A stretch of 64,000 nt of DNA from the NCBI GenBank assembly GCA_903895845.1, contig CAITVK010000121.1, forward strand, positions 34,980 to 98,979, in the 5' to 3' direction. The translations under genes were made by a program, and so were the position numbers. Positions 15,003 through 63,191 of this stretch are shown here, in pieces. This DNA comes from an uncultured Chitinophagaceae bacterium (GTDB lineage: Bacteria; Bacteroidota; Bacteroidia; Chitinophagales; Chitinophagaceae). Numbering within the stretch: position 1 is the stretch's first letter; every line of letters begins with the position of its first letter. Below the pieces are notes generated by a model. It was not told the DNA's origin and did no database searches. It saw nothing but the letters and a program-made list of their open reading frames with translations.

Positions 15003-15147
15003 CATTATTCAAGCATTCCACGTCATTATTTAAGCTTAATTAATGACGCAACAAGCTTGAATAATGACGCAACAAGCATGAATAATCACCCGTAATGCTT
15101 GAATAATGACGTGGAATGCTTGAATAATGGCACAAAAAGGCACATTT
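15003..15147. repeat. 21-bp-period tandem array B (atgacgcaacaagcttgaata-like units) with an inverted first unit
   Basis: Direct units at 15043, 15064, 15085, 15106 (plus a decayed one at 15127). 15003-15030 is the perfect 28-bp reverse complement of 15102-15129. Confidence 0.92.
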
Positions 15148-24136: not shown

Positions 24137-24214
24137 GAGGAAGTAGTAGGTAATAAGTTATAGTTTGTACGTTCTTTAGATGTAAAAAATAGAGATTTAG
24201 TGATTGCGGACTTT

Positions 24215-24382
24215 CCCCTTTTCTTTGGGGGACACCCCCTTTTCCTTCGGGGGCATCCCCTTTTTCTCTGGGGGTATCCGCAATTTGTTGGGGGGCACCC
24301 GCAATGTTCTTGGGGACATCCCCTTTTCTCTGGGGGGCATCCCCTTTTGTTTGGGGGACAACCGCAAATAGCTTAGGGACAA
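24215..24382. repeat. 21-bp-period tandem array C (ccccttttctttgggggacac / ccgcaatttgttggggggcac subtypes), 8 units
   Basis: Unit starts 24215, 24236, 24257, 24278, 24299, 24320, 24341, 24362. Confidence 0.95.
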
Positions 24383-32190: not shown

Positions 32191-32206
32191 AGGGGAGTTT
32201 GTCCTC

Positions 32207-32416
32207 AATAAGTGGTCACTTATTCATAATAAGCACCTTCTTTTTTTCAATAAGGACTCACTTATTACAAATAAACGAGTTCTTATTCGGAATAAGTGAG
32301 TCCTTTTTTTCAATAAGTGACAACTTATCGCAAATAAGTGGTTACATATTCATAATAAGTGACCACTATCTTTCAGTAAGTTGTCACTTATTGGAAGAAA
32401 GTACTCACTAAAAATG
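32207..32416. repeat. 21-bp-period tandem array D (aataagtggtcacttattcat-like), 10 units
   Basis: Unit starts 32207, 32228, 32249, 32270, 32291, 32312, 32333, 32354, 32375, 32396. Confidence 0.95.
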
Positions 32417-35016: not shown

Positions 35017-35263
35017 TTTCGCAAAGATATTCGCAATAGGCGTATGAACAGGACTGATATATTCATAAATATATCGTCCATCTTGTAGAATATAATGAAG
35101 AGATACATGACTATATCGAGTATTGTGTGAATTTATTAACTCTGTTTATCAATTCAAACTACTTTTCTACATATCCCTTTATCAAAAAAGTAAATAATTA
35201 ATAGACCGAATGCTTTTCAATCCCATTATTCTTAATCTTTGTTGAAATAAAACTAATCTGTAC

Positions 35264-36018: not shown

Positions 36019-36186
36019 TCCCGCAAAGATTTCCGTACAACCCTAATTGTTTGACGGCATACCCTTAAGGAATAAGGGTGAACCCACAACAATATTTGGT
36101 ATACCCGGAACAATTTATGGTGTACCCAGAACAATATTTGGTGTACCCAAAGTTGTTACGGGTGTACCCGGAAGAAAATTGGGTAA
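36019..36186. repeat. 21-bp-period tandem array E (acccacaacaatatttggtat-like, ACCC...GGGT units), 8 units
   Basis: Unit starts 36019, 36040, 36061, 36082, 36103, 36124, 36145, 36166. Confidence 0.93.
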
Positions 36187-36251
36187 GATCGAAGAACGCC
36201 TTTTAGCGCTAAAATGAGTTAATTATTCTTTTATATTCTGTAAAGTATAGG

Positions 36252-40982: not shown

Positions 40983-41073
40983 TCCATGTTACAAGTTACT
41001 CGAAATAAGGATTTATAACTAATAACTAATAACTAATAACTAATAACTAATAACTAATAACTAATAACTAATA
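40983..41073. repeat. Heptanucleotide microsatellite (ctaataa)n overlapping the 3' end of fabD
   Basis: Uninterrupted taactaataactaataact... about 10 copies; the fabD stop lies in the first unit. Confidence 0.9.
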
Positions 41074-41951
41074 ATCACTGCTTCCCTGTAAATCTTCTGC
41101 ACCAATCCTTGCAACACTTTTCCTGGACCCACTTCCGTAAAGTTGATTGCACCATCTGCCACCATTGCTTCCACGCTTTGTGTCCAACGCACAGCCCCTG
41201 TCAACTGAGCTTCCAGATTTTGTTTTATCTCCATCGGGTCAGTCACTGCTTTTGCAACTACGTTCTGATAAACAGGACAAGTTGGTGTATTAAAAGTTGT
41301 TGCTGCAATAGCTGCTGCCAGTTCTTCTTTGGCACTCGCCATCAACGGACTATGAAATGCACCACCAACAGGCAATACCAACGCACGTTTAGCACCAGCC
41401 GCTTTCATTCGCTCACAAGCGATGTTGATGCCCGCTACCGATCCACTTATCACCAGTTGTCCCGGGCAATTATAGTTAGCTGCTACTACTGTCTCACCCG
41501 TTTCAGCTTGTATTTCAGCACATATTTTCTCTACTGTTTCGTCTGCCAATGCCAATACTGCTGCCATCGTACCAGGAACTATTTCGCAAGCTTTCTGCAT
41601 GGCATTTGCACGGATGCTCACCAGTTTCAACGCGTCTTCAAAGCTCAATGTGTTGTTTGCCACCAATGCCGAAAACTCGCCCAAAGAATGTCCTGCCACC
41701 ATATCAGGCTTGGCATCAGACAATGTTTTATAAGCAATTACAGAGTGAATAAAGATGGCAGGTTGCGTCACATTCGTCTGTTTCAACTGCTCATCAGTCC
41801 CTTCAAACATAATGTCGCTGATTCTAAAACCTAGTATTTCATTAGCCTTTTCAAACAGTTCCTTAGCTGTTTCATTGCCATCGTACAGGCTTTTGCCCAT
41901 CCCACTAAACTGCGATCCCTGACCCGGAAATATAAAAGCGTGTTTACTCAT
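41061..41951 (-). CDS. fabD: Malonyl-CoA ACP transacylase
   Basis: FIFPGQGSQFSGMGKSLYD, GHSLGEFSALVA, FHSPLM. Confidence 0.95.
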   Translation of the reverse strand: MSKHAFIFPGQGSQFSGMGKSLYDGNETAKELFEKANEILGFRISDIMFEGTDEQLKQTNVTQPAIFIHSVIAYKTLSDAKPDMVAGHSLGEFSALVANNTLSFEDALKLVSIRANAMQKACEIVPGTMAAVLALADETVEKICAEIQAETGETVVAANYNCPGQLVISGSVAGINIACERMKAAGAKRALVLPVGGAFHSPLMASAKEELAAAIAATTFNTPTCPVYQNVVAKAVTDPMEIKQNLEAQLTGAVRWTQSVEAMVADGAINFTEVGPGKVLQGLVQKIYREAVIISY

Positions 41952-43558: not shown

Positions 43559-43768
43559 TTTTCTATTTATTTGAATATCGAAATAAAAGTTTTGAATATT
43601 CAAATAAAATATTCGGTGCATCAAATAAAATAGCTGACACACCAAATAAAATAATTGGTACACCAAATAAAAAATCTGACGCACCAAATAAAATAGTTGA
43701 TGTGTCAAATAAAACATTCGGTACACCAAATAAAGTATTCGACACACCAAATTTCTTGAAAAAGAAAG
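43559..43768. repeat. 21-bp-period tandem array F (caaataaaatattcggtgcat-like), 7 clear units plus decayed/inverted edges
   Basis: Unit starts 43580, 43601, 43622, 43643, 43664, 43685, 43706, 43727 (43748 decayed). Confidence 0.95.
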
Positions 43769-44558: not shown

Positions 44559-44713
44559 TATTGCTGAACTTATTACTTACTACTTACAACTTACGACTTA
44601 TGCCTTACGAAATCATTTGAGTTAGTATCGCAAAACAATAAAATGCAGGTTTATACTTGCTACTAATTCATTTTCCATTAATTTCACGCCGCAAAAAAGA
44701 TAATCTAAATTAT

Positions 44714-51307: not shown

Positions 51308-51383
51308 ATTCTTAATTAGTTTTAAATGTTTCCACAATCTTCTATCCGATTCCCAAATATAGCGTACCAATCCTCAAATACTT

Positions 51384-51593
51384 CATCACTTAATTGAAAT
51401 AAGTGATGAAGTATTTGACTTTTTTGATCAAGTTTTCCAAAAACTTAATCAAGTATTCAGTTTTTTTGATGAAGTTTCTTAATTACTTGATGAAGAAAAA
51501 GGTTTTCTTGATGAAGTTTTTCAATTACTTGATCAAGTTTTACAATTAAGTGATGATATTTTCCAATTACTTGATGAAGTTTTTGGGGTTCGT
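51384..51593. repeat. 21-bp-period tandem array G (gatgaagtttttcaattactt-like), 9 direct units plus an inverted first unit
   Basis: Unit starts 51405, 51426, 51447, 51468, 51489, 51510, 51531, 51552, 51573; 51374-51392 and 51400-51418 are 19-bp perfect inverted arms. Confidence 0.95.
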
Positions 51594-51651
51594 ACAAAAT
51601 AAACTTTTAATTGCTAGTTAAAATAAAGGAATGTTTTTTACTTATAACTCA

Positions 51652-51870
51652 TTATTGAGTACTCACAACTATTTTATTATAAACTTCCACCAACGTATCT
51701 ACCGCTTTTTGTTTGTTTCTATATAATGCAGCGTAATGTTTGAACCCTTTTTATTTAAATCCCATTGCCCGCTGATGTAATTTACAGCATTGCTTAGAAG
51801 CACTCCACTCAATTGATGGTTTTTGAGAAATTCGATATAGTTATAAGGAAAGAGAGATTTTTGTGAAGAA
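51652..51870 (-). pseudogene. Possible degraded/frameshifted gene remnant
   Basis: Minus strand reads PYNYIEFLKNHQLSGVLLSNAVNYISGQWDLNKKGSNITLHYIETNKK, then continues after a frame change as KAVDTLVEVYNKIVVSTQ*. Confidence 0.35.
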
Positions 51871-56155: not shown

Positions 56156-56678
56156 GACTAATTATTTTAACTATGCTTGATGTGATTGGAATGAGATAAA
56201 TGATTTATAAGCCAAAAGACTAGCCTTTGACAGTAAAATGCCATTAATTACAAACCAGATTGTATAAATGAAGTTGAACATAACCTTTGATGTTGTCCCG
56301 CTGCTGCGGCGGTGTACCAAAGGCATCCATGCAGAAGTGGGGGAGTTAACGAATGTTTTTACTATCTGACGGAATACTGTCCATGCTGTGTTTTTGAGTG
56401 ATAAATGTGCAACCTCTTTTGTTGCGATGCGCAAATGTAGGACAGCTTGTTTGAAGGATTGTTTGGTGAAGTCTTAGAATTTTATTAGAATTTGTATTAA
56501 GTAAGCCTTGTTCCTTATACCTAATGTCCGTTCGGTTTTAAGTAAGGTGTTGTTTTTATTGTCTTATAAAATCATTCAATCCCTTACTGTTATTGCGCTG
56601 TAGCGTATTGGGTACTCCATATTCCTTATCATCCTTTTACTGTATCATCTTATTTTTTTGGATTTATTTACTGAACTT

Positions 56679-56846
56679 GTCACGTGTGACAGGTTTTCTG
56701 TCACAGGTTACGATATTTCTGTCACAGGTTACCAACATTCTGTAACCTGTGAAAATATTTCTGTCACAGGTTACCAACTTCTTGTAACCTGTGCAATATT
56801 TCCTGTAACCTGTGACAAGAAGTTGGTAACCTGTGACGGAACAAAT
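56679..56846. repeat. 21-bp-period tandem array H (gtcacaggttac / gtaacctgtgac core in both orientations), 8 units
   Basis: Unit starts 56679, 56700, 56721, 56742, 56763, 56784, 56805, 56826; 56763-56785 is the perfect reverse complement of 56815-56837. Confidence 0.96.
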
Positions 56847-56915
56847 AAGTAATTAGATATTCATCAAATCAAACTTCAAAATGGAGGAAATGATTTACTA
56901 AAGAGCATAAACAAA

Positions 56916-61840: not shown

Positions 61841-61847
61841 TTTAATT

Positions 61848-61960
61848 AGTTATGAGTTATAAAATATGAGTTATGAACTTAATTATGAGTTATGAAATAT
61901 GAATGATGAGTAATCTGTTATGTTCTAAAACTCATAACTCATCATTCATAACTCATAACT
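61848..61960. repeat. Intergenic (TTATGAG)n inverted repeat between kduI and kduD
   Basis: agttatgagttataaaatatgagttatgaac ... aactcataactcatcattcataactcataact. Confidence 0.8.
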
Positions 61961-63063: not shown

Positions 63064-63150
63064 TGGCGTGCCCCGAGGCGGGTCGGGCTTTCCGTTCCAA
63101 TCTTTTTGCCAAGCAGCAAAAAGGATTTCCACTTCAATCCCTCACGCAAT
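63064..63150. repeat. Dispersed intergenic element gcgtgccccgaggcgggtcgggctttccgttccaatctttttgc...gcaaaaaggatttccacttcaatccctcacgca
   Basis: Contains hairpin ctttttgc/gcaaaaag; matches a sequence type I recall from intergenic regions of many Bacteroidota (not searched). Confidence 0.6.
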
Positions 63151-63191
63151 GTGCGAATAGACTGTATTACTGAATAAGATTGGTTTGCAAA

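Follow-up and report, generated by a model that had tools for sequence, protein, structure and literature searches.

How do the units of a tandem repeat come to lie in both orientations while keeping one exact period, and what does such a repeat do? The question is raised by array H, a short repeat in the window, the whole 64,000-nucleotide stretch of DNA analysed here, which belongs to a Chitinophagaceae-like lineage with a Ferruginibacter-labelled MAG among its nearest named matches. The array and its main internal duplication are as follows.

56679 to 56837, no strand assigned: array H, with an exact 21-bp period made up of a 12-bp core and a 9-bp spacer (eight cores, seven spacers).
56763 to 56785, plus strand: core plus spacer with an exact inverted recurrence, the longest inverted repeat in array H (23 bp).
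56815 to 56837, minus strand: inverted copy of 56763-56785, an exact reverse complement (23 bp).

The cores start at 56679, 56700, 56721, 56742, 56763, 56784, 56805 and 56826, all steps being 21 bp; the array end of 56846 given in a preliminary description lies about 9 bp too far, as the last core stops at 56837. Each core consists of two 5-bp half-sites flanking 2 bp (5-2-5), whereby half-site A is GTCAC, half-site B is GTAAC, and a "flip" exchanges A-B' for B-A'. Unit 1 is symmetric (GTCACGTGTGAC); units 2, 3 and 5 read GTCACAGGTTAC (forward, n = 3), and units 4, 6, 7 and 8 read GTAACCTGTGAC, the reverse complement of GTCACAGGTTAC, or are near it (n = 4). The claim that cores occur in both orientations locked to the 21-bp phase was confirmed by this count of three forward, four reverse and one symmetric; that the core flips unit by unit holds for mixed orientation and fails for strict alternation. 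The proposed quasi-palindromic, dimer-type core was also borne out, the 5-2-5 half-sites being dyad-symmetric and the dyad staying put on inversion. The 23-bp inverted repeat is exact, as described: when only the spacers were shuffled and the cores left in place, 2 of 2000 sequences equalled it, and plain shuffles gave a longest inverted repeat of at most 10 bp. Its inner ends fall at core edges. The argument against simple slippage likewise stands, since same-strand slippage alone yields no inverted units. No Rfam family matched at array H.

Orientation flipping as a property of the system was not supported by comparison with sister arrays and relatives. In the orientation comparison that the preliminary description had itself proposed, the array at C114:129105-129260, which has the core family of array H, carries all eight of its units in the same direction; another of this family, at C82:23343-23501, is of mixed orientation and includes A-A' units. 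Most cores are symmetric in G007, in G009 and in the G002 orthologue of the C114 array, so orientation carries little meaning there. The half-sites are GTCAC and GGAAC in G004 (at two unlinked loci), RYCAC in G007 and G009, and YYCAC in G001; they are common to unlinked loci within one genome, yet different between species, and the layout of 5-2-5 plus 9 is constant across congeners despite the change. The orientation of units in array H is a by-product, and the persistent features are dyad symmetry and the 21-bp step. Array H is not a special switch, and there is no sign of dedicated inversion.

The preliminary description had recognised a real repeat and treated it as a single array, whereas about 290 arrays are extrapolated for the genome. 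Arrays were counted in a 459-kb lag scan and in a second, independent 701 kb; the total of 1.16 Mb (29% of the genome) held 83 arrays, making up 1.5% of its DNA, with a median of ~9.8 units. In the lag scan, strong enrichment was seen at 21, 42 and 63 bp only, plus 7 bp from heptamer arrays; no arrays with 20- or 22-bp units were present among those of the 1.16 Mb, and the 21-bp arrays have no 7-bp sub-period. Unit similarity groups the 83 arrays into ~44 clusters of one to seven arrays each. Dyad symmetry was significant in 49 of the 83 (p<0.05 by column permutation; ~4 expected), leaving 34 without a significant dyad, and exact inverted 16-mer matches over all 83 arrays fell on one axis class modulo 21 in 126 of 126 cases. 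Further arrays in the window are listed here.

2744 to 2986, no strand assigned: array A, with a 42-bp (2 x 21) period.
15020 to 15134, no strand assigned: array B (AAGCTTGAATAATGACG), first unit inverted; the family is also found at C114:174207.
24214 to 24381, no strand assigned: array C (GGGGGACATCCCC).
32195 to 32395, no strand assigned: array D (AATAAGTGGTCACTTATT), missing from both G001 and G010.
36060 to 36190, no strand assigned: array E (GGTGTACCC), missing from G001; it occurs in G010, where its cores are changed.
43560 to 43752, no strand assigned: array F (CACCAAATAAAATATT...).
51373 to 51590, no strand assigned: array G (ACTTGATCAAGT); the copies at C48:169-572 and at C60:19047-19427 are 94-95% identical to it.

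Other repeats and elements were noted alongside. Heptamer arrays at 41015-41074, 44568-44610 and 61846-61960 (ATAACTA, ACTTATAACTTACG and AACTCAT types) are also intergenic, and the array of ATAACTA type recurs many times in relatives, in several cases at the end of a contig. A Flavo-1 RNA (RF01705) was matched on the minus strand at 63077-63162 with 59.6 bits, above the gathering score. At G000:C53, an array is flanked by a palindromic MITE-like repeat of ~170 bp with AATGTCGTTTAGTTAAGG ends (L034 106-278) and by a multi-copy IS (L034 466-1755) with what we take, from its sequence by eye, to be an IS256-like transposase; several copies of both end contigs. The array at C53:60266 was considered as part of this IS and rejected, as the repeated IS stretch begins at the array edge, in other copies too.

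Every one of the 83 arrays falls between genes in a genome that is ~85% coding, and a reading of them as coding repeats was rejected on that ground. In the first 33 arrays, gaps of each type (divergent, convergent or tandem) were occupied roughly in proportion to gap length, a pattern that argues against a simple role as promoter or terminator. From one array to the next the distance averages 12.8 kb, with a coefficient of variation of 0.54, compared with 0.85-0.91 under four null models, and none of 3000 null draws was as low (P<1/3000); the test was made on a single draft genome (138 contigs), long ORFs standing in for genes, and the evenness is visible separately in the 459-kb and the 701-kb data sets. 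Neighbouring arrays came from different families in 67 of 68 pairs, so family-specific target immunity fails to explain the spacing.

The period itself was then considered as a possible object of selection. Of 263 core-to-core steps, 240 measure exactly 21 bp and 5 deviate by a single base pair. With 0.09 indels per substitution in noncoding DNA between species, and with adjacent units diverging at 40% of positions, ~200 indels (to an order of magnitude) would be expected in the arrays, against ~20 irregular steps observed. This shortage is partly ascertainment, because arrays were detected by their phase, and the substitution count is distorted by unit duplication and inversion; it suggests selection on array phase, short of proof; the absence of arrays with 20- or 22-bp units agrees with such selection.

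Six sampled congeners (G001, G004, G006, G007, G010 and G011) contain arrays, at varying density; none were present in the 60 kb sampled of G012, nor were arrays of this kind found in samples of up to 20 kb from other genera of the family. In those genera, tandem repeats of 24 and 23 bp were observed (L101 13710-13804; L105 48-136), which resemble the multiple repeats at the termini of IS21-family elements. One frame of a 21-bp array in G033 translates into a repeated heptapeptide, and this array was excluded as coding. Among 80 MgtA loci across bacteria, mostly Bacteroidota, a 21-bp palindromic array of mixed orientation was found in one Bacteroidales MAG (DUQY01000046.1; L245 3729-3812 and 8760-8843); the array's core, TGAAACGCTGTTTCA, occurs both forward and reversed, and the array recurs inverted 5 kb off. 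A second 21-bp repeat (GTCCCACC) adjoins the first array there. A scan of viral contigs returned mostly heptamer arrays. On one of these contigs (IMGVR_UViG_3300037524_000452; L289 977-1111), a 21-bp array of TGTTACNGGTAACA palindromes was seen, which is perhaps a phage operator or iteron array. No description of 21-bp palindromic arrays in this lineage was found in the literature.

The reading we favour, tentatively and at somewhat below an even chance, is that array H belongs to a genus-wide class of intergenic arrays, made of dyad-symmetric, operator-like sites of ~12-18 bp repeated ~8-11 times at two helical turns, putatively protein-bound and domain-marking. As 21 bp corresponds to two helical turns, all sites would face one side of the DNA. 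Each family may have its own dimeric DNA-binding protein, which would bind the sites co-operatively and through which selection would keep the spacing; such a reader is suggested by the operator-size dyads, by sites two turns apart, by indels that break the phase being apparently rare, and by half-sites that unlinked loci of a genome share and that differ between species. In favour of the reading, array E has exchanged nearly all its cores between G000 and G010 and stayed in phase, and the Bacteroidales MAG has a similar 21-bp palindromic array; the 34 arrays without a significant dyad count against it. Units would be duplicated, lost or inverted by exchange or strand-switching within the palindromic core, and an exchange that starts and ends inside such cores would give direct or inverted copies with the phase kept automatically. 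The arrays might serve as chromosome-scale markers, for instance supercoil or loop-domain boundaries, rather than as single-gene switches, a role proposed because of the even spacing and the analogy to BIMEs; the turnover of array positions between close species is unexpected for fixed boundaries. A fuller version, in which ~290 fast-evolving phased palindrome arrays placed every ~13 kb and bound by co-evolving dimeric proteins would form a chromosome-architecture system of Bacteroidota with regular domains, is unlikely.

The strongest competitor, rather unlikely itself, holds that the arrays are non-autonomous selfish elements, MITE-like and minisatellite-bearing as BrickBuilt is, which would be spread by transposases or ectopic recombination and have no host function. 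It draws on the surroundings of array H and on array turnover.

56548 to 56678, no strand assigned: left module of the H element, ~70% identical to the C114 and C82 elements and to G002:C238.
56841 to 56860, no strand assigned: right border AATAAGTAATTA, counterpart of an inverted border that is clearest in C114 (TTGTAATTACTT ... AAGTAATTACAA).
56493 to 56879 (approximate), no strand assigned: stretch missing in G001, where the mgtA-exuT gap is ~33 bp as against ~415 bp here.
35054 to 35150, no strand assigned: decayed array remnant, a full array with 42-bp period in G001:C10 and absent in G010.

Array H lies within an element of ~330-390 bp, with a common left module and an inverted border, that is present at three unlinked loci (H, C114 and C82) and missing in G001. 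In H the left end shows this inverted border weakly; in the C114 and G002 copies the border adjoins the array. Plasmid or phage relatives of the H element were not found. A peptide in the left module (KEYRLPQTLQ...) was unconvincing as a gene, its four copies being short and of unequal length. Presence and absence of arrays differ between species, and in G010 an array of another family stands upstream of mgtA. The near-identical copies of array G bear pieces of flanking genes: at C48 an mqnD-like gene contributes its 3' end to the match, and at C60 a lipoprotein gene contributes its signal-peptide start. A fragment matching the 3' end of the C48 mqnD-like gene was also observed at 51640-51710, apparently carried with array G. 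From these copies, arrays travel with neighbouring DNA or act as recombination junctions. Against selfish spread, the array G copies have unequal flanks, unlike the products of precise transposition; empty sites showed neither clear terminal inverted repeats nor clear target-site duplications. Moreover, the ~44 families are unrelated and yet have one period and are evenly spaced across families, an arrangement that separate families would not produce.

Less probable is that the arrays are functionless neutral minisatellites, in which palindromic cores would drive slippage and strand-switching and the 21-bp period would come from the mutational mechanism. Units are indeed gained, contracted and lost whole: the C114 array differs from its orthologue in G002 by complete 21-bp units, and array E has one unit more in G010. 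Inverted units that end inside cores and the lack of preference for promoter or terminator gaps also fit, and intergenic placement could reflect tolerance. A neutral process would be expected to yield many periods, however, and only 21 bp was found besides the heptamers; even spacing and identical half-sites at unlinked loci within one genome count against it as well.

A role as transcribed hairpins, be it as terminators, sRNA-like or mRNA-stabilising elements, is very improbable. As a single strand, array H folds far better than its shuffles (z -9.6 as DNA, -8.0 as RNA), and the C82 and G004 copies likewise fold better than shuffles, but strong folding is not a conserved property: array B gives z +0.1, array C -2.6 and the C114 sister -3.2. 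Because folding strength varies among arrays, a function in transcript structure is unlikely; all gap types are occupied, and the lack of an Rfam family at H points the same way. Scarcely credible is a programmed switch, in which a recombinase would flip units of array H in the population: the exact inverted unit and the mixed orientations in H and C82 would fit, but palindromic cores account for all in-phase inversions, the C114 sister is uniform, cores are symmetric in many relatives, and no recombinase gene was recognised among the ORFs from 50 kb to 64 kb.

Among known systems, BIMEs are nearest in behaviour and BrickBuilt is nearest in anatomy and phylum, and by the features tested the arrays belong to neither. 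BIMEs are intergenic clusters of REP palindromes in both orientations, hundreds per genome, which have been proposed as topological domain barriers (PMC6907758; PMC2817692), and one BIME was shown to impede supercoil diffusion (PMC6907758). The arrays resemble them in palindromic intergenic units, in the use of both orientations and in high number; they differ in the exact 21-bp step and in having ~44 unrelated core families in 29% of the genome. The cores of H lack the GT(A/G)G (GTAG-type) head of REPs, and by eye no constant head of that type was seen in the cores and spacers of H and its relatives. REP/BIME sequences are RAYT-associated; an origin by RAYT/REP was rejected, as no 21-bp array lies within ~1.5 kb of either of the two Y1_Tnp loci here.

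BrickBuilt, a MITE of Porphyromonas gingivalis, has a 23-nt repeat of one family at 19 loci with IS-like terminal inverted repeats (PMC4596501). It shares with the arrays a Bacteroidota host, an intergenic tandem repeat of similar length, a leader and tail and variable copy number, and the H element, with its three loci and common left module, matches this anatomy. The arrays differ in their ~44 families, 21-bp and mostly dyad-symmetric units, inverted units and even spacing. In plasmid iteron arrays, sites for a binding protein recur in tandem about every two helical turns, next to a rep gene at a single replication origin. The arrays share the tandem sites at two-turn spacing and differ in occupying ~290 chromosomal loci; the genes beside H, C82 and C114 are of housekeeping, transport or hypothetical type, and no rep gene was recognised among them. 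The TAACTGA heptamer arrays of Beggiatoaceae are dispersed, short and intergenic (PMC4679880), as are the 21-bp arrays. The latter differ in having no 7-bp sub-period, for which reason a heptamer origin was rejected.

What determines the boundaries of bacterial topological domains is an open question (PMC6907758). The ~290 sequence-diverse arrays, with their two-turn period, solely intergenic placement and even spacing, are concrete candidate boundary sites. Even if the arrays are selfish, they show that palindromic cores allow the units of a repeat to be duplicated and inverted without loss of helical phase.
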